A DNA stretch of 44,703 nt from Clostridiales bacterium (GTDB taxonomy: Bacteria > Bacillota > Clostridia > Oscillospirales > Oscillospiraceae), in assembly GCA_012520295.1 (NCBI GenBank), contig JAAYOP010000071.1:1-44703 (forward strand), written 5' to 3'. The stretch's first letter is position 1, and every line of letters starts with the position of its first letter. A program made the translations under genes and the position numbers. A model generated the notes under the pieces. That model saw only the letters and a list, made by a program, of their open reading frames with translations. It searched no databases and had not been told where the DNA came from. Shown one piece after another: positions 2,562-34,013 of this stretch.

Positions 2562-3911
2562 ATGCTCAATGATTTGACCCAGGGGAAACCCCTGAAGGTG
2601 ATATGGAGATTTTCGTTGCCGCTTTTACTCAGTATGGCGTTCCAGCAAATGTACAATGTTGCCGACAGCATGATAGTCGGCTGGCTCGTTGGCTCGAACG
2701 CACTGGCGGCAATAGGGGCAGCATATCCGATTACTCTTATATTTATAGCGATAGCCACCGGGCTGTCAATGGGGGCCTCGGTGGTAATAGGGCATCTTTA
2801 TGGCGCAAAACGCATGACCATGGTAAAAAGCGCAGTCAACACCGTCACATTGGCCCTGTGCGTGTTTGGAATATTTATAAGCGCTGTCGGTGTCGCTTTA
2901 TCCGGGCCGTTGATGAGAGTGCTGGGAGCACCGGCGACTATTTATAATGATGCCAGAAATTATCTGATAATCTATTCTGTGGGCATACTGCCCATGTTTA
3001 TATACAACACCACAAGCGCCGTTTTTACCGGACTTGGAGATTCAAAAAGACCGTTATATTTCCTGATATTATCATCACTGCTAAATATTCTGCTCGATAT
3101 CATAGCTGTGGGCCCCCTTAAAATGGGGGTAGCGGGTGCGGCCTGGGCAACGGTTCTCGCTCAGCTCATTGCTGCAGCACTGTCCGGCACCGTGCTTTTC
3201 AAAAGGGTCGGGGCTATTGAGACAGAGGAAAAACCAAAACTATTCGAAAAGCGTGTTCTCACTGAAATGCTCAGGCAATCATTACCGGCAGTCTTTCAAC
3301 AATCCTGTATCGCGATAGGCCATACCTTTATTCAGAGCCTGGTAAACAGTTACAGCGAATCATTTATAGCCGGATATGAGATCGCCTCAAAGATACACAA
3401 TTTTGCATATATGTGTTTTAACACGATTGGAACTGCACTCTCCAGCTTTGTCGCTCAAAATTTTGGGGCAGGTAAGATGAAGCGGATACAAAAGGGTTAT
3501 CAAATATCTTCAGCTATGTGCTTTGGCATCGCCGCATTTGTCGTCATAATCATGCAGGCATTTGCGCCGCAGCTCATCGGTTTATTTGTAGATGCATCTA
3601 AAAACCCCGAAGTTATTCTGGCGGGCAGCCGATATCTCAGAACCATATCTCCCGCTTACCTTGTCATCTGCTTTATCATTACCACCGGTGGCCTTTTACG
3701 CGGAGTAGGCCGTGTGCAGGTTTTCCTTATTATAACTATATTGGACTTGGGTATACGCGTGTCCATGTCATTTGTCCTGACAAATCTTCTGGGAAACTAC
3801 ACGGGCATTTTTTGGGCATGGTATTTCGGTTCCATTCCGGATTTCGCTATTTGTTTATGGCTCTACAGGCGCATGTGCCGGAAAGGCGGTCTTTTGGCTG
3901 GTGAGAGTTGA
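2562..3911 (+). CDS. MATE-family multidrug exporter
   Basis: MATE transporters use Na+ or H+ gradients to expel cationic drugs and metabolites across the membrane. The 449-residue protein has about 12 hydrophobic segments and an internal repeat. Its N-terminus resembles the MepA/DinF group (PLLLSMAFQQMYNVADSMIVG, then ALAAIGAAYP). The start is the ATG at 2562 after a GGGGAGGTGGGG site; an upstream in-frame TTG at 2538 lies before the ribosome site. The gene stands alone and converges on a MarR regulator, with which it shares a terminator. Regulation by that MarR protein is possible but not shown, and the substrate cannot be told. Confidence 0.9.
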   Translation: MLNDLTQGKPLKVIWRFSLPLLLSMAFQQMYNVADSMIVGWLVGSNALAAIGAAYPITLIFIAIATGLSMGASVVIGHLYGAKRMTMVKSAVNTVTLALCVFGIFISAVGVALSGPLMRVLGAPATIYNDARNYLIIYSVGILPMFIYNTTSAVFTGLGDSKRPLYFLILSSLLNILLDIIAVGPLKMGVAGAAWATVLAQLIAAALSGTVLFKRVGAIETEEKPKLFEKRVLTEMLRQSLPAVFQQSCIAIGHTFIQSLVNSYSESFIAGYEIASKIHNFAYMCFNTIGTALSSFVAQNFGAGKMKRIQKGYQISSAMCFGIAAFVVIIMQAFAPQLIGLFVDASKNPEVILAGSRYLRTISPAYLVICFIITTGGLLRGVGRVQVFLIITILDLGIRVSMSFVLTNLLGNYTGIFWAWYFGSIPDFAICLWLYRRMCRKGGLLAGES

Positions 3912-7810: not shown

Positions 7811-10162
7811 TTATTTCCTGTTTTCAACTGCGATAGTGAGAACAGTCATATCGTCTTCACAGCCGTGTTTCTGGGCAGCCTTCTCCAAAATATCCCGTGC
7901 CAGCTCTTTGGCATCATCACCGGTGTAATCTTTTATAGTTTCGGCAATCCACACATCATCATTTCCTGAAACAACTCCATCACTTACTATAACGGCAAAA
8001 CTGTCCGCCTCAAGCTTCACCTTAATATGGTCCGGCGTACACAGCCCAGCGGCGTCGATACCGGCGGCTATGCTCTCACCGGATACTCTCCTTACTGTCT
8101 TTCCTTTTTTAACATACGAGGGCGCCGCACCATATTTAAACATCTGGGTTTCGCCGCTGAAAAGATTTATACACATGAGGTCCACAGTGGCCAAAGTAAT
8201 GCTCTCTTCTCCTCTTAAAAGCATTACAGAAGAGAGAATCCTCAGGGCCGTCGCCGCAGGCACTCCCGCTTTTAACAGCCTCTCTAGAATTTTAACTGCC
8301 GAAGCACTGTCTCTTTTTGCTTCAATTCCGCTTCCCATGCCGTCGGACAGCAATACGCATAATATACCTTCTTCAGTTTTGAAATATGTGCCGCTGTCTC
8401 CACTGACTCCGGCGTTCTTTTTTCTGATGGAAGCTATCCCTACAGATGCGGCAAGGGGCTCAGCCTCTAAAACCTGAAGTCTTCCCTTTCTGTTCCTCTC
8501 CGACTCGCACAGCCTTTTGCCCACAACCGCGGAAAGCTTGTCCAGATATGATTTGTCCTTTTTCAAATCGTGAATGCCGCTGCCTTCCAGCTCTATATGC
8601 AGGCGTTCGTTTTTATCTCTGAACACACCGGCGGTAATATCCGCCCCAATACCTCTCAGGTACAGCTTGAGCTTTTTCTCCAGCTCCCTTTCATATTCCG
8701 ATGTGGTATCCAGTTCTTCCGCCATGTTTTTCAATACCGAGGACATCTCCAAAAACTGTCTGTATAAAATATCCTGGTTTTCTTTAAGCCTGTTTCTGAA
8801 CTGTACCCTCAGTAACAGGTTTTTAAGCTCCATATTGGCTGCGGATGTAAAGGCTTTTATATCCAGACATTTATCTCTGAAATAGGAGGGGAAATCCTCT
8901 TCCAGCAGCATCCCCCTTTGCATCATGGGCTTTGACGCATCATTCATGGCGTTAAAGGTGTTTATATATTCTCTTTGCCAGCAGTAAACAGACATACGGC
9001 ATTTGCGACAGGTCATGTCCGCGGCCATATCAAATACGCTTGATATATCGTTATCGTTTTTACCGCCCTCGGCATAATGCCTCAGGAGTTCGTATATATC
9101 CCGAAATGCCCTGGCCGCCCGCTCCGCCTTTGCTCTTATATACTCCTTCGATTTTATTGCCCCGTCAAAACTCATTTCCTTTAGAAAGGCCTCTTTCCAG
9201 CTTATGAGCAGCGACGAAGGCAGCAGTATAAAAATCACGGATGCTATGAATGTCTCATATAGTATAGCCTCTCTGAATACGCTGTCCCAGCCCCAGAGGA
9301 CCGCAATTGCGTTGGAAAGAATATATGTTATGGTAAAAATCAGCCTTCCGCCATTTGAAAACACCCCTGATATAAGTCCCGCTATCGAATATGCAGCGGT
9401 AAAAAACGGCGGAGAGGCAGATGCCGCGTCCATGGATATACCAAAGGCAATTCCGGACACACTTCCCCATGTCATACCACCCCTGTAGCCTGCGGTCATG
9501 ACCGCTGTCACCGCCAGGATTCTGCCTGTTGAGATAAAACTGAATATCCTGAGTCCGGAAAGAGAAATGAACAGAGTAGACAGAAGAATCAGCAGGCTGA
9601 TTCTTTTACGATAGCCTTCCTCCTGGCTTTTCCCAGGGGATAGGACAAGCAGATAAAAATAAGCACTCCCGCCGGCCAGAACCGTCTCCATTATATAGAA
9701 AGCCGTTGCCGAAATACTCCAGCCCGCATCGGCTGCATACACAAAGCCTGTACAGGCGGTCATCAATCCTCCTATAAAGGGCATAAACCAGCGCTTTGAA
9801 TACAGCTTTGTGTCCTTGAAGACAAAGGCAGCCGAGAATATCAGCACACAGATGGAAACATATTTTGTGGCCCATACAAAGCCTCCGGAGCCAACAGCCC
9901 CCAAAACTGCGCCTATAATGGCAAACAGCCCGCCGAGCCCCGCTCCCGAAGCGGCAATAAAACCAATTCCAAAGGGCGCGTAATTACCAAATATTTTTGC
10001 AGATGATAATAAAAAGCCGAGTACAAGCCTGGCCGCATACTCGGCAGCACGTATCATTACTGGATTTTGAAATGCCGCATTTAAACCCCTAAACAGCTTT
10101 TTTGGCACCTTTCCGGTGAGCCTCTCCACATTCTCCCATACCTTGTCCACTATCAACGCCAT
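7811..10162 (-). CDS. spoIIE: Stage II sporulation protein E, membrane PP2C phosphatase
   Basis: SpoIIE dephosphorylates the anti-anti-sigma factor SpoIIAA in the forespore and so releases sigma F; it also acts at the polar septum. The 783-residue product begins with about 10 membrane segments (to roughly residue 320), then a central regulatory helical region. The C-terminal PP2C domain carries VLLSDGMGSGIEA and VIVSDGVV with the metal-binding Asp residues. AGGAGG lies only 2 nt before the ATG at 10162 but 8 nt before an in-frame TTG at 10156, which may be the real start. A promoter of the Spo0A-activated type lies just upstream, which fits its role. Confidence 0.95.
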   Translation of the reverse strand: MALIVDKVWENVERLTGKVPKKLFRGLNAAFQNPVMIRAAEYAARLVLGFLLSSAKIFGNYAPFGIGFIAASGAGLGGLFAIIGAVLGAVGSGGFVWATKYVSICVLIFSAAFVFKDTKLYSKRWFMPFIGGLMTACTGFVYAADAGWSISATAFYIMETVLAGGSAYFYLLVLSPGKSQEEGYRKRISLLILLSTLFISLSGLRIFSFISTGRILAVTAVMTAGYRGGMTWGSVSGIAFGISMDAASASPPFFTAAYSIAGLISGVFSNGGRLIFTITYILSNAIAVLWGWDSVFREAILYETFIASVIFILLPSSLLISWKEAFLKEMSFDGAIKSKEYIRAKAERAARAFRDIYELLRHYAEGGKNDNDISSVFDMAADMTCRKCRMSVYCWQREYINTFNAMNDASKPMMQRGMLLEEDFPSYFRDKCLDIKAFTSAANMELKNLLLRVQFRNRLKENQDILYRQFLEMSSVLKNMAEELDTTSEYERELEKKLKLYLRGIGADITAGVFRDKNERLHIELEGSGIHDLKKDKSYLDKLSAVVGKRLCESERNRKGRLQVLEAEPLAASVGIASIRKKNAGVSGDSGTYFKTEEGILCVLLSDGMGSGIEAKRDSASAVKILERLLKAGVPAATALRILSSVMLLRGEESITLATVDLMCINLFSGETQMFKYGAAPSYVKKGKTVRRVSGESIAAGIDAAGLCTPDHIKVKLEADSFAVIVSDGVVSGNDDVWIAETIKDYTGDDAKELARDILEKAAQKHGCEDDMTVLTIAVENRK

Positions 10163-14309: not shown

Positions 14310-14332
14310 TTGTACCTCCCGGTTGTGTCAAT

Positions 14333-14442
14333 TAATGTCCAGTGAACAAACCTGTTTTGCCCTTTCAGATACATTGATTGGCTGTCTGAATGGATTTGCA
14401 GTCACACACCACAATTCCATTGTGCTGTGCCTTTGTTTTAAA
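14333..14442 (+). repeat. MITE-like repeat, copy B (3' end lost)
   Basis: The left end TAATGTCCAGTGAACAA and the core ATTGATTGGCTGTCTGAAT are clear. So is the paired GGATTTGCAG / CCACAATTCC region, followed by CATTGTGCTG. The right terminal repeat is absent or very degenerate, so the end is approximate. It fills the gap between ribF's terminator and the desulfurase gene. Confidence 0.65.
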
Positions 14443-16343: not shown

Positions 16344-17297
16344 CTATATTTTCTTCCAGACCTTTTCTGCGGCCGCCAGCATCAACCTCTTAGCCTCCTC
16401 AATTGAGCACTCCAGCGTGCATCCGGCCGCCATCCCATGGCCTCCCCCTCCATATTGGCTGCAGATATCGTCTGCGTTTGCGTAGTTAACCGTCCTTACC
16501 GACACCTTGCAAAGATTGTCTCTAAGCTCCGTTATGGTTATGCTTGTCTCAACTCCCTCTATCTGTCCGGCAACTACGGCAATGTCCTCCATGTCGTCTT
16601 CATCTGCCCCGGCTTTATCTATCATTTCCCTTGTTATGGCCGCTATTACAAGCTGGTTTTCCTTGAAAAACTCCAGGCTGTTTATTATATAGCCTTCCAG
16701 CTTCACTCTGCTCTTCGTTTTTGTCATAAAAATCTTTTTATTGATAATTCCGTTCTGCGCTCCGGCTTCCACAAGGGCCGCGGCGGTTTTCAAGGTGTTC
16801 GCCGTTGTGTTTTTATATCTGAAGCAACCTGTGTCGGTAGACACCGCAATATACAGCAGCTGTGCGGTTTCATAGCTTACAGACCCTGCAAGCTCCATTA
16901 AAACATGGTATATAATCTCTCCGCAGGAAGCATATTCACTCATGATAAAGCTTTCTTTGGCATACATTTTATTGGATTTGTGATGGTCTATTGACAGATC
17001 GATTTTCCCAATCAGTTTCTCTGCGTTAATTTGAATAATCTCTTCATCTGCCGTATCGACACTGATTATAAAATCCGGACTGTAATCCTCCGGAGCATGA
17101 TACTTTTCCACATAAGGCAGGTATCTGGAAGTTGTCTGAGGGTTTTCAAGTATATATGCGTTTTTTCCCAACTCTCTGAGGCCATTACAAAGGCCGGCTG
17201 CGCTGCCAAGGGCATCGCCGTCCGGTCTATGATGGGAGATTATCAGAAAATTGTTGTTTTTTCTCAACGCCTGAAGGGTTTGGCTTAAGCTGAACAT
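16344..17297 (-). CDS. nrnA: DHH/DHHA1 phosphoesterase, NrnA-type
   Basis: NrnA-type enzymes degrade nano-RNA and 3'-phosphoadenosine 5'-phosphate, and several also hydrolyse pApA from c-di-AMP breakdown. The 317-residue product has SHHRPDGDALGSA near residue 25 and VDTAD near 84. It also has the DHH motif in SIDHHKSNK near 108, STDTGCFRY near 150, and the DHHA1 signature QYGGGGHGMAAG near 290. The start is the ATG at 17297, six bases after GGAG; the longer frame begins at a TTG that overlaps it. It sits between rbfA and truB as usual. A BusR-like c-di-AMP-type regulator gene lies 5.7 kb away. Confidence 0.93.
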   Translation of the reverse strand: MFSLSQTLQALRKNNNFLIISHHRPDGDALGSAAGLCNGLRELGKNAYILENPQTTSRYLPYVEKYHAPEDYSPDFIISVDTADEEIIQINAEKLIGKIDLSIDHHKSNKMYAKESFIMSEYASCGEIIYHVLMELAGSVSYETAQLLYIAVSTDTGCFRYKNTTANTLKTAAALVEAGAQNGIINKKIFMTKTKSRVKLEGYIINSLEFFKENQLVIAAITREMIDKAGADEDDMEDIAVVAGQIEGVETSITITELRDNLCKVSVRTVNYANADDICSQYGGGGHGMAAGCTLECSIEEAKRLMLAAAEKVWKKI

Positions 17298-17348
17298 ACA
17301 CGTCTCCAATAACCGCTGAGGAAAATCTCCATGGATCTTTTACGAAAT

Positions 17349-22461: not shown

Positions 22462-22737
22462 TTAGTACCATATTTTTTTGCTTCTCTTCTCCCTTTTATG
22501 CTCCTTTACATCCACCAGTATTATATCATCTCCTATCCTTATTATCTTGTCCCAAAATATCACATAATCATCTTCCCTTCCGAATAATCCCAAAATTCTG
22601 CAAGGTCCGGGCACTACAATTGCTATAAGCCGTCCATCCGTGACCTCGACGATAACATCGTCCACAAAGCCCAAGCGGCACCCGTCGCAAATGTTAATAA
22701 CCTCCTTGCACCTCAGATCAGCTATTCTGCACCGCAT
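22462..22737 (-). CDS. ymxH: YlmC/YmxH-family PRC-barrel sporulation-associated protein
   Basis: This 91-residue protein belongs to the small YlmC/YmxH PRC-barrel family of spore formers; its molecular role is not established. MRCRIADLRCKEVINICDGCRLGFVDD is the family signature, followed by IVVPGPCRILGLFGREDDYVIFWDKIIRIGDDIILVD. The C-terminus is basic (KEHKREKRSKKIWY). GGAGG precedes the ATG. In many Firmicutes a homologue follows sigG; here it stands alone between rpsB and the betaine regulator, on the same strand as rpsB. Confidence 0.88.
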   Translation of the reverse strand: MRCRIADLRCKEVINICDGCRLGFVDDVIVEVTDGRLIAIVVPGPCRILGLFGREDDYVIFWDKIIRIGDDIILVDVKEHKREKRSKKIWY

Positions 22738-22891
22738 GGCAAACCTCCGAATATGAGTATTTTAGCATTCGATTGATTTATATTCACCCACTGCATGTAC
22801 CTATGCTATGCGTATACTGACCCTTCTGCCCCGCGGACAGGCCAAAAAGTCCGGCTGCATAAATCCTGAATTTGTATATAACCCTTCCTCT

Positions 22892-22919
22892 TTGCTTAAT
22901 CTACACTTTTTGATATAAT
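22892..22919 (+). promoter_or_regulatory. busR-like gene promoter
   Basis: TTGCTT (22892-22897), a 16-nt spacer and a perfect TATAAT (22914-22919) lie 44 bp before the regulator's start. Confidence 0.5.
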
Positions 22920-22962
22920 GTTAATAAAATTATAAAACATGATATGTAAGAGGTATTGTAAA

Positions 22963-23583
22963 ATGAAACGCCGTACTGTTGCTCCCATATATTCTCAAAT
23001 TGCATTTGATATAGCCTCAAAAATTGCCCGGGGAGAGCTCAGGGAGGGAGAGCGAATTTCCGGCCGTTCCCTGACTGCCAGCCAGTATTCGGTTTCTCCG
23101 GAAACCGTTCGCCGCTCATTCAGGCTTCTTGCCGACATGGAAATATTGGATATTCAGAAAAACAGCGGGGCAATTGTTCTCTCAAAGAGTAATGCTGTCC
23201 AGTATATAGAAAAATTTGAAACAAAAAAGGACATCGGTTTGCTTAAAGAACAGCTTAAAGAACTGCTGAAGGAGCGGGAAAAAATAAATAACCGTATTGT
23301 TGAGGTAATTAATGAAATAATTGATATTAGCGAGCGTTTTCGGAACAGTGATCCTCTTCGCAGCTATGAGTTTCGCATTGCCCCCGATTCTCCCCTTATA
23401 GGAAAGACTATCGCCAACTCCAAGTTCTGGCAGAACACAGGAGGAACCATAGTCGCTATTCGCAGAGGTAGCAGAATAATCCTGTCTCCGGGCCCTTACG
23501 CGGAGTTTTTATGTGACGATACCATTATAGTATCAGGTGAAATCGACGTGTCTGAAAGAGTGGAAACCTTTATAAATCCATAG
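22963..23583 (+). CDS. busR: BusR-like GntR / RCK_C transcriptional regulator
   Basis: BusR of lactic acid bacteria represses the betaine transporter and binds c-di-AMP through a C-terminal RCK_C domain. This 206-residue protein has the same plan. A GntR winged helix at about 1-75 includes RISGRSLTASQYSVSPETVRRSF. A coiled coil at about 90-125 is rich in Lys, Glu and Leu. An RCK_C domain from about 135 shows SPLIGKTIANSKFWQNTGGTIVAIRRGS and LSPGPYAEF. The start is the ATG at 22963 behind AGAGGT. It lies directly upstream of opuAC-AB-AA, with an inverted repeat at their promoter. The symbol reflects domain order and context; ligand binding is inferred. Confidence 0.85.
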   Translation: MKRRTVAPIYSQIAFDIASKIARGELREGERISGRSLTASQYSVSPETVRRSFRLLADMEILDIQKNSGAIVLSKSNAVQYIEKFETKKDIGLLKEQLKELLKEREKINNRIVEVINEIIDISERFRNSDPLRSYEFRIAPDSPLIGKTIANSKFWQNTGGTIVAIRRGSRIILSPGPYAEFLCDDTIIVSGEIDVSERVETFINP

Positions 23584-23640
23584 ATATGTGCTCCTTTCCA
23601 TGTACTGTGATCAGCGTCATCCTAATAAGCTTTTCATTTT

Positions 23641-23680
23641 AAAACTGGCTGCCCTCACAATACAGGCAGCCAGTTTTTTC
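23641..23680 (+). terminator. Terminator after busR-like gene
   Basis: A 13-bp AAAACTGGCTGCC/GGCAGCCAGTTTT stem with an 11-nt loop and trailing T residues separates the regulator from the transporter promoter. Confidence 0.9.
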
Positions 23681-23691
23681 TCCAGGTTTTC

Positions 23692-23720
23692 TTGACAAAT
23701 CAATACCTCTTGTGTATCAT
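23692..23720 (+). promoter_or_regulatory. opuAC-AB-AA promoter
   Basis: TTGACA (23692-23697), a 17-nt spacer and TATCAT (23715-23720) form a strong SigA promoter 81 bp before opuAC. Confidence 0.8.
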
Positions 23721-23733
23721 ATAACAAATCATG

Positions 23734-23767
23734 TGTGACAACTTGTTTGTTTTTGCAGATTGTCACA
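23734..23767. promoter_or_regulatory. Inverted-repeat operator for the betaine transporter
   Basis: TGTGACAA (23734-23741) and TTGTCACA (23760-23767) form a perfect 8-bp inverted repeat around an 18-nt AT-rich spacer. It extends imperfectly outward. It begins about 7 nt downstream of the expected transcription start, a typical repressor position. The BusR-like protein encoded just upstream is the obvious candidate ligand. Confidence 0.7.
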
Positions 23768-23800
23768 TATGAAGTTTTTTTATTTTTAAGGAGGCTATCT

Positions 23801-24829
23801 ATGAGTAAAAAGATAATATTTATTTCTCTTCTGCTGGCGGCTGTTATGCTATTTGGAGCCTGCGCTTCAAATCAGAACACACAGCCTACGAACCCCGGGG
23901 ATTCTACGAATACCAAATCAAGGCCGGTGGTGTTTGCCGATATCGGCTGGGACAGCATAAGGTTCCACAATGCCGTTGTAAGATTTATAGCCGAAGAAGT
24001 CTATGGACTGGAAACTGAGGAAGTTTCAGGCACCACCCCCATCACATATACCGCTCTTTTAAAGGGAGATATCGATGTTTCCATGGAAATGTGGACAGAT
24101 AATCTTGCCACCTACAAAGAGGACCTTTCAGAGGGCAAGTTTAAAGAGCTGGGGATTAACTTCGGAGATAATACCCAAGGTCTCTATGTACCCAGATATG
24201 TTATTGAAGGTGATGCCGAGCGCGGTATCGAACCGATGGCACCTGATTTAAAAACCGTTGAGGACTTAAAAAATTATCCTCAGGTATTCCAGGACCCTGA
24301 TAATCCCTCAAAGGGACGTATTTACGGGGCAATATCTGGCTGGGATATAGACACCATAATGAGAAAAAAGTGTCAATACTACGGCTTGACCGAGTCTTAT
24401 AATTACTTTGATCCCGGTTCTGATGCCGCTCTTTCAGCCGCTTTTGCCTCTGCCTATGAAAAAGGCGAACCCATCGTAGGCTATTACTGGGAGCCCACAT
24501 GGCTGCTTGGTAAATATGATCTGGTGCTTCTGGATGATGCTCCCTATGACGCAGAGCTCTACCCTGAAGGCAAGACAGCCTGTCCTTCTGTGGAAGTCAC
24601 GGTTTGCGTAAGCAATGACTTCTATGCAGCCTTTCCTGAATTTTGTGAGTTTCTCAGTAACTATAAAACCTCCAGCGCCCTTACTTCAGAAGCTCTCTCC
24701 TATATACAGGATACAAAGGCCTCTTATGAGGAAACTGCCATTTGGTTTCTTAAGGAAAATGACCAGCTTATCAGCCAGTGGCTGCCGGAAACCAAAGCAG
24801 AGCTCCTGCGCAATGAGCTCAATGAATAA
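23801..24829 (+). CDS. opuAC: Glycine betaine ABC transporter, substrate-binding lipoprotein
   Basis: This is the extracytoplasmic receptor for glycine betaine or proline betaine uptake under osmotic stress. The 342-residue protein has a lipoprotein signal with lipobox LFGAC (Cys21). The OpuAC-type fold begins FADIGWDSIRFHNAV; its Trp and Tyr residues (GWD, EMWTDN, YYWEPTW) are candidates for the aromatic cage around the quaternary ammonium. The start is the ATG at 23801 behind AGGAGG. It is the first gene of the operon, opposite to the ATPase-permease-receptor order of Bacillus opuA. Exact substrate is inferred from family. Confidence 0.93.
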   Translation: MSKKIIFISLLLAAVMLFGACASNQNTQPTNPGDSTNTKSRPVVFADIGWDSIRFHNAVVRFIAEEVYGLETEEVSGTTPITYTALLKGDIDVSMEMWTDNLATYKEDLSEGKFKELGINFGDNTQGLYVPRYVIEGDAERGIEPMAPDLKTVEDLKNYPQVFQDPDNPSKGRIYGAISGWDIDTIMRKKCQYYGLTESYNYFDPGSDAALSAAFASAYEKGEPIVGYYWEPTWLLGKYDLVLLDDAPYDAELYPEGKTACPSVEVTVCVSNDFYAAFPEFCEFLSNYKTSSALTSEALSYIQDTKASYEETAIWFLKENDQLISQWLPETKAELLRNELNE

Positions 24830-24841
24830 GGGGGGAATTTT

Positions 24842-25744
24842 ATGCCGGATTGGTTATATAACTTTCCTGAAACAATAAAACTGAACATACGTGAACCGAT
24901 TGATGAGTTTATTTCATATATAAATGTCAATTGGGAAGGCTTTTTTGACGCTGTCACCAAGGGCCTTCGCGGCATGCTCAAAGGTGTCAACTGGTTTATA
25001 GGCATCATTCCCTGGTGGGTGCTGGTCCTGGCAGTATTCATACTGACGTGGATAACCACCAAAAAGCCCCTCAGAGCGGTGCTCTATTCTCTTTTGCTGA
25101 TTTTTATTGGCTCCATGGGTCTGTGGTCATATATGGAGCAGACTCTGGCAATAGTCATCACCTCGGTGATACTGTCACTTGTCATCGGCTTCCCTCTAGG
25201 CATTCTTGTTGCCTCGGGTAAAAAAGCCGACGCGATTATTCGACCAGTTTTGGACACAATGCAAACAATGCCGTCATTTGTTTATCTGATTCCCGCCGTC
25301 ATGCTGTTGGGGCTTGGAAACGTACCCGCGGTAATAGCTACGACCATATATGCCATACCTCCCATTATTCGCCTGACCAGCCACGGCATTAAGCAGGTGG
25401 ACGCGGAGGTGGTGGAAGCGGCTCACGCCTTTGGCTCAACCCGCTGGCAGACCCTGATAAAGGTTCAGATCCCACAGGCAATGCCTACCATTATGACCGG
25501 CGTAAATCAAACCATCATGATGGCTTTGGCAATGGTTGTCACCTGCTCCATGATAGGTGCAACAGGACTTGGCTCTGAGGTTATCATCGGTATCAACCGT
25601 CTGGAAATCGGCCGAGGCTTCGCTGCCGGTATATCTGTGGTAATTATGGCGGTTATCCTGGACAGACTGACCCAGGGCATCTACAAACCCAAAGGAGGTG
25701 ACCTGGTTGCCGAGCAAAGCAGAGGTTTTATTAAAGGTAAATAA
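24842..25744 (+). CDS. opuAB: Glycine betaine ABC transporter, permease
   Basis: This membrane subunit forms the betaine channel. The 300-residue protein has a soluble N-terminal part and about six to seven membrane spans. The binding-protein-dependent permease signature EVVEAAHAFGSTRWQTLIKVQIPQA lies near residue 182. TMQTMPSFVYLIPAVMLLGLGNVPA is typical of ProW/OpuAB proteins. GGGGGG precedes the ATG. It begins 12 bp after opuAC, and its last 38 bp overlap the ATPase gene, indicating translational coupling. Confidence 0.95.
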   Translation: MPDWLYNFPETIKLNIREPIDEFISYINVNWEGFFDAVTKGLRGMLKGVNWFIGIIPWWVLVLAVFILTWITTKKPLRAVLYSLLLIFIGSMGLWSYMEQTLAIVITSVILSLVIGFPLGILVASGKKADAIIRPVLDTMQTMPSFVYLIPAVMLLGLGNVPAVIATTIYAIPPIIRLTSHGIKQVDAEVVEAAHAFGSTRWQTLIKVQIPQAMPTIMTGVNQTIMMALAMVVTCSMIGATGLGSEVIIGINRLEIGRGFAAGISVVIMAVILDRLTQGIYKPKGGDLVAEQSRGFIKGK

Positions 25745-26891
25745 TCTTTACAAACTTTACGGGGTTAACCGCCAGGCTGCAAGAGACCTGATGAAAAAGG
25801 GCGCGGACAAAAGCGAAATACTCAAACAGACCGGAGTAACAGTGGCTGTCAACAATGTGTCCTTTGAAGTGGAGCGGGGCAAGATATTTGTTCTTATAGG
25901 TTTGTCCGGCTCAGGTAAATCCACCGTTATAAGATGTATAAACATGCTGCAGCAACCCTCCTCGGGAAGCGTCATATTTGAAAACCAGGATATCGGCAAG
26001 CTGTCTCGTAAGGAATTGCTGGAATTCCGGCGCACCAAGGCATCCATGGTTTTTCAAAACTTCGGCCTCATGTCACACAGGGACGTCCTGGGAAATGTGG
26101 CATACGGTCTTGAGATTCGCGGAGTAAAAAGAGAAGAGCGCGAGTATAAAGCCATGGAAATGATTAAAATGGTGGGTCTGGAGGGCTGGGAGCACCAAAA
26201 CCCTTCTTCCCTGAGCGGTGGTATGCGCCAGCGTGTGGGGATAGCAAGAGCACTTACCAATGACCCGGAAATGCTGCTCATGGACGAGCCTTTCTCGGCG
26301 TTGGATCCGCTGGTGCGGCGCGATATGCAGTTTGAACTTCTGTCAATTCAGAGGAAAATGAATAAGACAATCCTGTTCATCACCCATGATATAGACGAAG
26401 CCTTCATGCTGGGAGATATGATTGGTATCATGCGGGACGGAAAGCTCATTCAGGTCGGCACGGCCGAGGAAATGACCTCAAATCCCGCCGATGACTATGT
26501 ACGCGACTTTATTGTCAGCGCCGATAAATCCCGGGTTTTCTGCGCAAAACATGTTATGATAACTCCCTCTTCATTGATTCGCCTCAGTGACGGTTCTGGA
26601 AAAGCCTTATCAATAATGAAGCGCAACGGAGTATCCAGCTCATATGTGATTGACGATAAGATGACTTTCATAGGAGTACTGACTCTGGAAGACGCCATGA
26701 AGGCTCGTTCGGAGAATCTCTCTGTGGAGTCATTGGTTATAAGAGATGTGGAAACGGTTAAGGAGGATGACCTCATAGCCGACATCATGCCCCAGGCTGC
26801 TCGGACAAGATTCCCCCTGGCAGTCGTGGACGAGGAGGGCAGGCTGAAAGGCATAGTATCGAAAGCCGCCGTTTTGTCCTCCATAAGCTAA
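25707..26891 (+). CDS. opuAA: Glycine betaine ABC transporter, ATPase with CBS pair
   Basis: The ATPase powers betaine uptake. The 394-residue product has Walker A GLSGSGKST, the Q-loop in VFQNFGLM, signature LSGGMRQRVGIARAL, Walker B LLMDEPFSALD and an HDIDEA switch. Two C-terminal CBS domains (about residues 275-394) follow, as in OpuA proteins whose CBS module senses ionic strength or nucleotides. The start is a TTG at 25707, eight bases after GGAGG. An in-frame GTG at 25698 would overlap the site. It overlaps opuAB by 38 bp. A strong terminator follows. Confidence 0.95.
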   Translation: MPSKAEVLLKVNNLYKLYGVNRQAARDLMKKGADKSEILKQTGVTVAVNNVSFEVERGKIFVLIGLSGSGKSTVIRCINMLQQPSSGSVIFENQDIGKLSRKELLEFRRTKASMVFQNFGLMSHRDVLGNVAYGLEIRGVKREEREYKAMEMIKMVGLEGWEHQNPSSLSGGMRQRVGIARALTNDPEMLLMDEPFSALDPLVRRDMQFELLSIQRKMNKTILFITHDIDEAFMLGDMIGIMRDGKLIQVGTAEEMTSNPADDYVRDFIVSADKSRVFCAKHVMITPSSLIRLSDGSGKALSIMKRNGVSSSYVIDDKMTFIGVLTLEDAMKARSENLSVESLVIRDVETVKEDDLIADIMPQAARTRFPLAVVDEEGRLKGIVSKAAVLSSIS

Positions 26892-27298: not shown

Positions 27299-28069
27299 TC
27301 ACAAATTCTTTTTTATCTGGTTTATGGCGCTCTTCTCCAGCCTGGAAACCTGGGCCTGGGAGATTCCCACCTCGTTTGAGACCTCCATCTGGGTCTTACC
27401 CTCGTAAAACCTGAGGGCCAGTATATGCTTCTCTCTCTGCCCCAGTCTGGCTATGGCGTCCGATAGGGCTATCTGCTCCAGCCAGCTCTCATCATTATTT
27501 TTCGTGTCCCCCACCTGGTCCATCACGCATATTGCATCCCCGCCGTCGGTATAAACCGGCTCATAAAGGGATACGGGCTCCATGATGGCATCTATGGCAA
27601 AGACCACTTCCTCCCTTTTCAAATCAAGCTCCTTGGCTATCTCCTCCACTGTGGGGTCTCTCTGTTTTTCGTTTGTCAGCCGCTCTTTCACCTGCAAAAT
27701 CCTGTATGCGGTGTCACGCATTGATCTGGAAACCCGGATTGTGCTGTTGTCCCTCAGATACCGCCTTATCTCGCCTATTATCATAGGTACTCCGTATGTG
27801 GAAAACCTCACCCCCTGGGACAAATCGAAGTTATCTATCGCCTTGATAAGACCAATGCATCCCACCTGGAAAAGGTCGTCGGCATTTTCTCCCCTGCCTA
27901 AAAACTTCTGTATAACGGAAAGCACAAGTCTGAGATTTCCCGAAATCAGTTCTTCTCTTGCCTTCTTATCCCCTTCCTTGCACCTTTTTAAAAGCTCGTT
28001 TATTTCATCATTTTTCAAAACCTTCAGTTTTGATGTATTTACGCCGCTCAGCTCGACTTTACCCTGCAT
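27299..28069 (-). CDS. sigG: Late forespore sigma factor G
   Basis: Sigma G directs late forespore transcription. The 256-residue protein begins KVELSGVNTSKLKVL, the region found in sigma G orthologues. Region 2 follows (LVLSVIQKFLGRGENADDLFQVGCIGLIKAIDNFD, FSTYGVPMIIGEIRRYLRD). Region 3 (SRSMRDTAYRI) and region 4, with a helix-turn-helix (MEVSNEVGISQAQVSRLE), complete it. A GAGAG site precedes the ATG. A SigF-like promoter lies upstream. The sigE gene lies 4.2 kb away on the same strand, with four genes between, whereas in Bacillus the two are adjacent. Confidence 0.96.
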   Translation of the reverse strand: MQGKVELSGVNTSKLKVLKNDEINELLKRCKEGDKKAREELISGNLRLVLSVIQKFLGRGENADDLFQVGCIGLIKAIDNFDLSQGVRFSTYGVPMIIGEIRRYLRDNSTIRVSRSMRDTAYRILQVKERLTNEKQRDPTVEEIAKELDLKREEVVFAIDAIMEPVSLYEPVYTDGGDAICVMDQVGDTKNNDESWLEQIALSDAIARLGQREKHILALRFYEGKTQMEVSNEVGISQAQVSRLEKSAINQIKKNL

Positions 28070-28202: not shown

Positions 28203-29033
28203 TTATATTGTAGCCGGGAATGTACCCCCGGACCGAGCCTGTGCCCCGGATGCCCGCTCCTGTATTTCTTCCTGTGTCCGGCTTTTATATATTTCCTCCA
28301 ACTTTTTGTAGTTTGGCCGTGATACGGAATCCAGCATGTAAGCCGAGCGCGTCGCGCCCCTGAATCTGTTTTGATTGAGAAACCTGATAATCCTTTCGGA
28401 TGTGGTTATGCCCACCCCGTGCCCGTAATACAGGTTGTCGGACAATACAATGACATTCTCCCCCTGCAGCTCCGGTGTTTTCGGGTCCACATCCGGGTTT
28501 TTTATATAAGCTCTGTCTCCGGGCAAAATATCCGTCACCGGTTTTGGAACACCGATTTCCCTGAGTAGGGGGTCAAGGGAATGCCAATTCATAAGATAAA
28601 TTGACCTGAAAAGCCTGTTAAAAAGAGATGTGCCAAAGACATTGAGCAGCGCCTTAAAATAAACAATCACCATTGCAGTGGCGCATTCGGTGGCATATTT
28701 GCGGCCGTTTGTGAAAATATCATTAATGGCTCCCGAGGCCAAAACTCCGGCTTTGAGCAGGAAGCCTCCGTTTGGAACCCTGTTCCAGTATTCTTCATTG
28801 CATTTTGACTTGTGAAATACCTCAAAGCCGAGTCCGCTCCTGTTGAGCATTTCCGCTACAGTTACCGTCTGTTTTCGAAGCAGCAGCTCAAACCTCAGCT
28901 GCTCGGCAGATGCATAGCTATATCTTGCCTCGCTTTGAGCCATTTTTCGCAGTACACGGGCTTCGGTACTGCCGGGCGGATAGCTCCTTTCCAGGGCAGT
29001 CATATCAGCTTCGCTGCCTGCTATTACTATCAC
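28203..29033 (-). CDS. tgl: Protein-glutamine gamma-glutamyltransferase, spore coat
   Basis: Tgl cross-links spore coat proteins through Gln-Lys isopeptide bonds late in sporulation. The 276-residue product has the family's catalytic segment KYATECATAMVIVYFKAL with Cys117, close to Cys116 of the Bacillus enzyme. It also has MNWHSLDPLL, LPGDRAYIKNPDVDPKTPELQGENVI and YYGHGVGI. The start is a GTG whose GTGA overlaps the stop of the upstream gene by 4 bp, with GGGGGAG eight bases before. That implies translational coupling to the unknown protein before it. A Thr/Glu/Gly-rich C-terminal tail follows the domain. Confidence 0.93.
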   Translation of the reverse strand: MIVIAGSEADMTALERSYPPGSTEARVLRKMAQSEARYSYASAEQLRFELLLRKQTVTVAEMLNRSGLGFEVFHKSKCNEEYWNRVPNGGFLLKAGVLASGAINDIFTNGRKYATECATAMVIVYFKALLNVFGTSLFNRLFRSIYLMNWHSLDPLLREIGVPKPVTDILPGDRAYIKNPDVDPKTPELQGENVIVLSDNLYYGHGVGITTSERIIRFLNQNRFRGATRSAYMLDSVSRPNYKKLEEIYKSRTQEEIQERASGAQARSGGTFPATI

Positions 29034-33062: not shown

Positions 33063-33926
33063 TTAAGCTATGTCGGCACAAACAAGGGCCGAATGCGTTC
33101 CGTTATTTGATACTCTGGTGGGCGAAAGAGCTATCCACATGCCTCTCATTTCCCTTCCCGCCAGCTTTACCCGGTCAGGCTTAAAGGCCAGAAGCATGTC
33201 GCTCTTCACACCCACAGCGCTGTAGGGTATGAGCCTGAAGCGCAGTCCGGGCTCCCGTTCCCATAAAAGCTCCATTCTTTCCGATGACGACTTGCTTTTG
33301 GAGCTCAGTAAAATGTCCGAAACTTCCTTTTCAAAGAGCCCTGCGGCAGCTTCATCCTCTATTATCGGCACCGGTATTCCCGTAAGAGGATCTCGCAGCA
33401 TATTCCCCGTATCCTTCAGGGCCGGCAGCCTAACCTTTTTGTCACCGCACCAGATTTCCAATGTCACATATCCTCCCCTGCCTCCTGCCGCTGCCATAAA
33501 TCTGAATACTGCGGTCAAAATACCATAAGCCAGGCCAAGGGTAAGCAGAAGACTTCTCAGATTTATCGGAAGAAAAATACCGCCTTCCATAATCTCCTCT
33601 CCACCCAACAGCGCCACTGCCATAACAATCCCGCCAAATGCTGCTGTGACTGCAGCAAAAATAAGTCCTGTTTTCAAAAGACCTTTCTTGCCGCCAAAGG
33701 CACACAGGAACATCAGGACCCCGGATCCTATCTTTATCACAGGATTTCTCAAAAATTCAAGGCCCGGCAGTATTGCCGCCACTGCGTATGCCGCGCCTGT
33801 GGCCGCTGACAGGGCAAGTCTCAGCCTCCCTACCCAGAAAGCGCGGATTTTGCACACTGCCGCAAGAAGAAGGTAGTTTACCATCAGGTTTATAACAAAC
33901 AGCACATCTGCGTAAACAACTCTCAC
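33063..33926 (-). CDS. spoIIGA: Sporulation sigma-E processing peptidase
   Basis: SpoIIGA is the membrane aspartic protease that cleaves pro-sigma E after receiving a forespore signal. The 287-residue product starts with five hydrophobic segments (residues 1-145), then a soluble protease domain. The catalytic motif KDTGNMLRDPLTG has Asp172, matching Asp183 in Bacillus. The C-terminus keeps RLIPYSAVG and LLAFKPDRV. The start is a GTG at 33926 (MRVVYADVLF) behind GGGGGGAGG. It is the first gene of the spoIIGA-sigE unit, with a Spo0A-type promoter. Confidence 0.95.
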   Translation of the reverse strand: MRVVYADVLFVINLMVNYLLLAAVCKIRAFWVGRLRLALSAATGAAYAVAAILPGLEFLRNPVIKIGSGVLMFLCAFGGKKGLLKTGLIFAAVTAAFGGIVMAVALLGGEEIMEGGIFLPINLRSLLLTLGLAYGILTAVFRFMAAAGGRGGYVTLEIWCGDKKVRLPALKDTGNMLRDPLTGIPVPIIEDEAAAGLFEKEVSDILLSSKSKSSSERMELLWEREPGLRFRLIPYSAVGVKSDMLLAFKPDRVKLAGREMRGMWIALSPTRVSNNGTHSALVCADIA

Positions 33927-33980
33927 AAGCCTCCCCCCTGCCCGGCGTGAAAAGTTTGTAACCAGCTCCCCTCGCCTTGC

Positions 33981-34013
33981 ATTATAAGTAAGCCTGTCAA
34001 AGAAAAAAGTCAT
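33981..34013 (-). promoter_or_regulatory. spoIIGA-sigE promoter, Spo0A-type spacing
   Basis: On the minus strand ATGACT (34013-34008) and a perfect TATAAT (33986-33981) are separated by 21 nt, the same unusual spacing as at spoIIE. A TTTGACA element, partly like a 0A box, lies in the spacer. The -35 matches 4 of 6. Confidence 0.45.

Follow-up and report, generated by a model that had tools for sequence, protein, structure and literature searches.

The window, by which we mean the whole stretch of 44,703 nucleotides analysed here, contains a gene for a BusR-type regulator directly adjacent to an operon for a ProV-type ABC importer, with a perfect inverted repeat at the start of the opu transcript (Table 1). 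The terminator of busR, with its 11-base loop, was missed by a consensus terminator scan of 22600-24000, which allowed only loops of 3-8 bases. Elsewhere in the window there are sporulation genes, namely spoIIE (7811-10162), sigG (27299-28069) and spoIIGA (33063-34013), and a gene for a spore-type protein-glutamine gamma-glutamyltransferase (28203-29033).

Table 1 Features of the busR-opu locus and the nrnA-type gene (positions in the window)
Feature	Position	Strand	Basis or remark
nrnA-type gene, DHH + DHHA1	16344-17309	minus	adjoins truB and ribF
busR Shine-Dalgarno-like AAGAGG	22948-22953	+	direct reading of the sequence
busR, repressor with GntR wHTH, coiled coil and RCK_C, 206 aa (P0001)	22963-23583	+	Pfam, phmmer, Foldseek
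busR intrinsic terminator, 13-bp stem, 11-base loop, T run	23641-23677	+	fold -21.1 kcal/mol, z -6.4
opu promoter, TTGACA, 17 nt, TATCAT (11 of 12)	23692-23720	+	promoter scan
BusR operator (predicted site), TGTGACAA-N18-TTGTCACA	23734-23767	+	perfect repeat
opuAC, glycine-betaine-type substrate-binding lipoprotein	23801-24829	+	PF04069, E 3.9e-53
opuAB, permease	24842-25744	+	BPD_transp_1
opuAA, ATPase with two CBS stretches (ProV type)	25698-26891	+	TIGR01186, 402.5 bits against a cut-off of 326.6

The initial annotation had read the order GntR, coiled coil and RCK_C from the busR frame, and both the order and the coordinates proved right, with a BusR match over nearly the full length. Pfam places GntR at residues 10-72 (PF00392, 33.8 bits against a cut-off of 27) and TrkA_C/RCK_C at residues 135-203 (PF02080, 52.9 bits against 27), and in the predicted model residues 75-129 form one long helix between both domains. 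Searches with phmmer matched Streptococcus agalactiae BusR (7b5t) across residues 6-205 (E 4.2e-38) and 7wjg, labelled Streptococcus mutans BusR in the Foldseek result, across residues 10-193 (E 6e-33), both far ahead of ordinary GntR proteins. The S. mutans protein is thus alike in sequence over residues 10-193 and in fold, while being only 31% identical across the aligned part. When the predicted model was compared with the PDB by Foldseek, ranks 1-13 were BusR chains and ranks 14-15 the BusR RCK_C domain, and the single RCK_C domain superposed on 7b5u/7b5w with an rmsd of 1.1-1.3 Å. The mean pLDDT of the model is 86.9, and its domain arrangement is uncertain because the pTM is 0.43; whole-chain TM-scores against BusR structures are low (0.37-0.45), which, going by the model, may be put down to interdomain bending.

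Relatives were collected by a scan of genomes that gave 432 stretches encoding proteins related to BusR, of which the best 80 were examined as loci. S. agalactiae BusR (7b5t, 7b5y, 7oz3; PMC8517857) shares with the window protein the domain order, the coiled-coil length and several key residues of the DNA side and the interface, although the two are 34% identical and differ in part of the ligand pocket. The stretch from wHTH to RCK_C aligns without gaps, with 61 residues in each protein between the counted reference positions. Arg38, Arg53 and Gly72, whose mutation weakened binding in S. agalactiae, are kept in the window protein and in 80/80 relatives; Lys54, also among the residues whose mutation had this effect, is Arg, and the DNA-side positions 36 and 70 differ as well (K36S, G70N). 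The interface residues Tyr13, Trp159, Pro179, Gly180 and Pro181 are kept in all 80 relatives, and Phe182 is changed to Tyr.

In the ligand pocket, I153, W159, T165, I166, G180 and P181 are retained relative to S. agalactiae BusR and five positions are changed (G154A, N157K, V158F, H160Q and A164G). Among the 80 relatives, position 154 is G in 53, 157 is K in 53, 158 is F in all 80, 160 is Q in 70 and 164 is G in 42, so that K157, F158, Q160 and G164 are the commonest states. The genome encodes one diadenylate cyclase (DAC) domain gene (144.4 bits against a cut-off of 27). Control of the window protein by c-di-AMP is plausible and probable, although five pocket residues differ. A competing explanation keeps a BusR-type repressor of opu but has its RCK_C domain read another nucleotide or ionic strength, instead of or besides c-di-AMP. 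The replacements of Asn157 by Lys, His160 by Gln and Ala164 by Gly would fit this, as Ala164 bars c-di-GMP in S. agalactiae (PMC8517857), and L. lactis BusR also responds to ionic strength in vitro according to the available part of the literature. Nevertheless, the six retained pocket residues and the DAC domain speak against it, and both BusR proteins tested in the accessible portions of that literature (L. lactis and S. agalactiae) bind c-di-AMP; we regard a different ligand as improbable. It had also been suggested that nrnA in the window may act in c-di-AMP turnover. An nrnA-type gene with DHH and DHHA1 domains is indeed present, but it adds little, since it lies beside truB and ribF, the usual place for nrnA, and not with busR.

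The family matches of OpuAC, the permease and the ProV-type ATPase agree with the receptor-permease-ATPase order claimed at the outset. The closest NCBIfam models of OpuAB are choline and ProW permeases, both under their cut-offs, and betaine is the inferred substrate of OpuAC-AB-AA. A GTG start of opuAC at 23735, taken from the listing of open reading frames, lies inside the operator and is disfavoured; the likely start is the ATG at 23801 that follows AAGGAGG. The start of opuAA falls within the end of opuAB and its exact position is not fixed. The two CBS stretches of OpuAA would allow the transporter itself to be controlled directly as well, as is described for OpuCA (PMC5919688) and for BusAA.

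A perfect repeat at the start of the opuAC-AB-AA transcript, the second central claim of the initial annotation, is present as described. Its full letters are TGTGACAACTTGTTTGTTTTTGCAGATTGTCACA, with the core formed by GAC at 23737-23739, N22 and GTC at 23762-23764. The pattern TGTGACAA-N18-TTGTCACA has a single match in the window, with zero mismatches, and 0 in 100 shuffles; in the 2.57 Mb assembly it occurs in a single place, against 0 for the reversed control pattern. The site scores 30.8 with a half-site matrix, and 20 Mb of random sequence contained 0 sites scoring at least 22 at N22 or N23. The BusR motif is defined as GAC-N22-GTC, the spacing being 22 bp in all four experimentally determined sites, and changes of +5 or -10 bp abolish BusR binding (PMC8517857); the window repeat is an exact fit to this motif. 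In S. agalactiae the GAC-N22-GTC operator likewise lies near the start of the operon for a betaine ABC importer, with two operators there (pAB1 and pAB2; PMC8517857) against one in the window. A second operator on the -35/-10 region, as in S. agalactiae, was sought in the window and none was found, the TTGACAA box being a half-site only. As for further targets in the genome itself, the strict form of the pattern (below) has one site, and two other TGACAA-N17-20-TTGTCA sites (N21 in contig C6, N24 in C39) lie within or at the end of open frames and were not counted as targets.

With transcription of opu probably starting at about 23727, the operator, which begins 13 bases past the -10 element of this strong promoter, would span roughly positions +7 to +40 of the mRNA. 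We infer tetramer formation, DNA binding, repression and c-di-AMP as the ligand, in a mechanism of the following kind. BusR would be produced from its own short transcript, ended by its own terminator, and the tetramer would grip both GAC half-sites, separated by three helical turns, immediately past the transcription start of opuAC. Binding of c-di-AMP is expected to free the DNA-binding heads, as in the known family. Transcription of opuAC-AB-AA would then be shut off when c-di-AMP is high and there is no osmotic need, and salt stress would lift the repression. Repression could act through blocked initiation or early elongation.

At E 0.001, matches were found in 33/60 genomes (own included), most of them to the GntR domain alone, whereas near whole-protein matches (at least 119 bits) occurred in 10/59 other genomes; across the order, near whole-protein BusR is present in 20/394 genomes at E 1e-15, again with the own genome included. 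The best 80 of the 432 stretches are nearly all clostridial by title, mostly from Oscillospiraceae and other Clostridia, and include Papillibacter cinnamivorans, Anaerocolumna, Anaerotignum and Oscillibacter, with a few metagenome-assembled genomes titled otherwise (Bacillales, Anaerolineaceae, Spirochaetes). In 69 of these 80 loci, tblastn placed one or more matches to OpuAA, OpuAB or OpuAC within 6 kb; in three of the 69 (L054, L084, L100) the ATPase alone is matched. The arrangement busR-opuAC-AB-AA is seen in nine loci (L034, L039, L041, L060, L063, L077, L085, L099, L107), and in three others (L088, L108, L109) opuAC-AB-AA is on the other strand from busR. Most of the remaining loci look like OpuC-type sets, since their ATPase match is weaker and two permeases are matched. 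The window-type OpuAC receptor is itself rare in the order (3/394 genomes at E 1e-30).

A proposed check had been to look for the same repeat upstream of opu operons in relatives: 10 of 15 opuAC promoters in busR-bearing genomes carry a site scoring at least 20. The 15 comprise the window, the nine busR-opuAC-AB-AA loci, the three other-strand loci and the genomes G001 and G108; the ten with a site are the window, L034, L039, L041, L063, L107, L088, L108, L109 and G001. Weak or worn sites alone are found at L060, L077, L085, L099 and G108, and L060 and L085 retain GAC-N23-GTC with 7/8 palindromic arm bases. The strongest case of conservation is the congener G001, in which busR and opu are on different contigs. 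No opu match was found on the 9.9 kb contig that carries its busR (67% identity), and its opuAC-AB-AA, on another contig, has AGTGACAACTTTAAAATAAATAGGAGTTGTCACT (N22) before opuAC. The place before opuAC is the telling feature in this genome, since the short pattern has 6 matches there against 21 for the reversed control, and the strict pattern 1 against 1. In the sole control genome, G201 (n=1), with an opuAC 60% identical and busR not found, there is no operator at opuAC. No site of at least 15 lies near busR in 22 of the 80 loci, and in a second set of 25 busR loci, partly the same ones, such a site was found within about 1.5 kb in 8.

Binding of the repeat by another regulator, for instance another GntR protein, with the proximity of busR a coincidence, must also be considered. 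The half-site TGACAA is close to a -35 box in sequence, and chance alone produces short forms of the repeat: TGACAA-N17-20-TTGTCA is present somewhere in 215/394 genomes and was rejected as a genome-wide marker. A stricter form, TGACAAY-N16/17-RTTGTCA, is found in 7/26 busR-bearing against 2/30 busR-less genomes and in 11/38 further busR genomes (38 of the best 80); it was set aside as well, as it separates weakly, because several matches fall in open frames, and misses sites with one worn half. The longer form, however, is seldom met: the 1.38 Mb of loci contain 34 distinct sites of at least 22 at N22 or N23, whereas 20 Mb of random sequence contains 0, and 28/34 are in loci having busR, a share that is partly by design because loci were chosen for busR or for the pattern. 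The site is also absent at opuAC in G201 and at ablB in G274, two busR-less genomes, and taken together this makes another regulator a very improbable owner of the repeat. Hardly credible is an RNA hairpin or a chance palindrome, for although the repeat would belong to the 5' untranslated region of the opu mRNA, the window has no Rfam match at gathering scores, many relatives' sites could not be transcribed whole because they are located on the predicted -35 or -10 and not past the -10, and the repeat is conserved in relatives.

We thus put the probability that the window holds a BusR-family transcriptional repressor together with its operator at about 90%. Protein family, operator spacing, promoter layout and conservation with opu are direct observations, and this core is well supported because of the near full-length homology, the exact ruler spacing and the conservation in relatives, including the unlinked congener.

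The operators of the relatives were then compared by spacing, with the half-site matrix built from 8 arms typed after sites had been seen, so that its scores favour sites of that kind, though no spacing. A matrix-free count of palindromes around GAC...GTC in the 80 loci gave 17 at N23, 15 at N18, 4 at N22 and 1-10 at the rest; the N18 palindromes have varied arms and places and include near-identical copies among related loci. The matrix scan found a site of at least 15 near busR in 58 of the 80 loci, the best site per locus having N23 in 48, N22 in 4, N21 in 4, N19 in 1 and N24 in 1, and each of the five best sites at N19 or N21 has an N23 reading as second. The 80 loci are not independent: 32 of the 48 N23 sites precede busR, most of them in Oscillibacter-type relatives. 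Among the sites that follow busR, 16 are N23, 4 are N22 and 1 is N24. Across 215 loci (1.38 Mb), the distinct sites scoring at least 22 number 25 at N23, 9 at N22, 1 at N24 and 1 at N30, with none at other spacings from 10 to 40. At a threshold of 14, spacings 31 and 38 rise too (10 and 12), which we put down to -35 TTGACAA boxes; neither is present at 22.

Three placements are seen against the top-scoring predicted promoter: on the -35, for sites upstream of busR, on the -10, and immediately past the -10, as in the window. Two promoters combine both spacings: in L107 a worn N23-type site (by eye) coincides with the -10 and is followed by a perfect N22 site, and in L192, a second busR locus of G428, the -10 carries an N23 site scoring 24.2, again with an N22 site past it. 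The length of the coiled coil was considered as a cause of the N22/N23 difference and was not found to correlate with it among the relatives' proteins. A coiled-coil span of 62 residues is frequent among Oscillibacter-type proteins with N23, but 61 residues go with N23 in L035, L037, L039, L059 and L080 as well as with N22 in L034, L038, L040 and L107. As far as the sequences indicate, the published 22-bp rule as such does not seem to hold for clostridial BusR, and the prevalence of N23 represents a testable departure from a fixed 22-bp ruler.

Sites of this kind are not confined to uptake genes. In the busR-bearing genome G195, a perfect N23 operator spans the -10 of ablB-ablA, which encode N-acetyl-beta-lysine synthesis (L174:5318-5352; G195:C2, about 14317-14351). 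A second N23 operator there spans the -10 of a gene on contig C11 for an aminomutase of the KamA family (L210:1636-1670), for which family models leave the substrate unsettled and the start codon is not fixed. Anaerotignum neopropionicum DSM 3847 (G451, the genome of L087) has an N23 operator over the ablB-ablA -10 with one worn core and a score of 28.7 (L212:4735-4769); the -10 is inside the operator at all three of these promoters. There is no operator at ablB in G274, which has ablB and no busR. Four genomes have both genes with no operator found, namely G435 (contig edge), G456, G425 and G426. In the last two the ablB relatives show 33-35% identity, and the stretch gave no match to ablA. 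The operator is thus seen at ablB in 2/6 genomes having both. The gene is rare, occurring in 2/394 genomes of the order and in 5 of 79 busR genomes (the best-80 set minus that of L033, whose contig agrees with that of G001 in length and busR position). In G092, each of two tandem phnS2-like receptor genes has an N22 operator past its TATAAT (contig C34; L216 near 2027-2060 and 3232-3265). These genes score below the cut-off of the phnS2 model and are followed by an ABC ATPase and a permease (by eye).

N-acetyl-beta-lysine is an osmolyte, and a Na+/c-di-AMP riboswitch pair is described at ablA of Dehalobacter in the available part of PMC9337991, which assigns to such riboswitches a c-di-AMP-linked role at this gene. 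A c-di-AMP-linked shut-off of beta-lysine synthesis would be the common element; the sensor in Dehalobacter is RNA, as far as that excerpt goes (PMC9337991), whereas the two relatives have a BusR-type operator before ablB-ablA. We consider it somewhat better than an even bet that clostridial BusR has a broader role in the control of osmotic solutes, with a ruler that tolerates both spacings and a regulon that reaches solute synthesis and perhaps the phnS2-like importer in G092. Its operators have N23 more often than N22 despite a coiled coil of equal length in many of these proteins, and two promoters have an N23-type site (worn in one of them) as well as an N22 site. Such a regulon suggests that one c-di-AMP-type repressor can govern the import as well as the synthesis of compatible solutes.

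The proposal that a clostridial system would extend the range of BusR carries little weight. The presence of BusR-type regulators in clostridia is already on record in two 2018 papers, and the wider taxonomic range is therefore no novelty: excerpts of Pham 2018 (PMC6108528) report BusR homologues in Firmicutes including Clostridium, those of Devaux 2018 (PMC5919688) list RCK_C-GntR regulators in streptococci, lactococci and clostridia, and the best 80 of 432 are nearly all clostridial by title. Whether such regulators control osmoregulation only is left open in the available text of Devaux 2018 (PMC5919688). According to the same partial source (PMC5919688), busR is 655 kb from busAB in S. agalactiae, in contrast to its place beside opu in the window, and in Lactococcus lactis busR lies immediately upstream of the transporter operon, as here. 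In L. lactis, again from partial text, BusAB is a fusion of receptor and permease, and the ATPase gene comes first (busAA-busAB), whereas the window has a free OpuAC first. A paper by Oberkampf from 2022 on C. difficile, cited in others, may deal with BusR in that species. Its busAA mutant was used in one of the citing papers. In the open-licence literature we found no report of an N23 spacing or of ablB control by BusR, and none that treats BusR and the aminomutase together; the N23 preference and the BusR-type operators at ablB-ablA promoters look new. The interest is accordingly modest for the window system itself, a compact BusR system with a perfect operator in the bacterial family of Papillibacter, and higher for the operator survey.

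Two further loci place BusR relatives beside other transporter genes, both read by eye. In L008 the neighbour is a BCCT-like transporter, recognized from its translation, and in L012 it is a sodium:solute symporter-like gene, with an N22-type site (22.9) upstream of busR.
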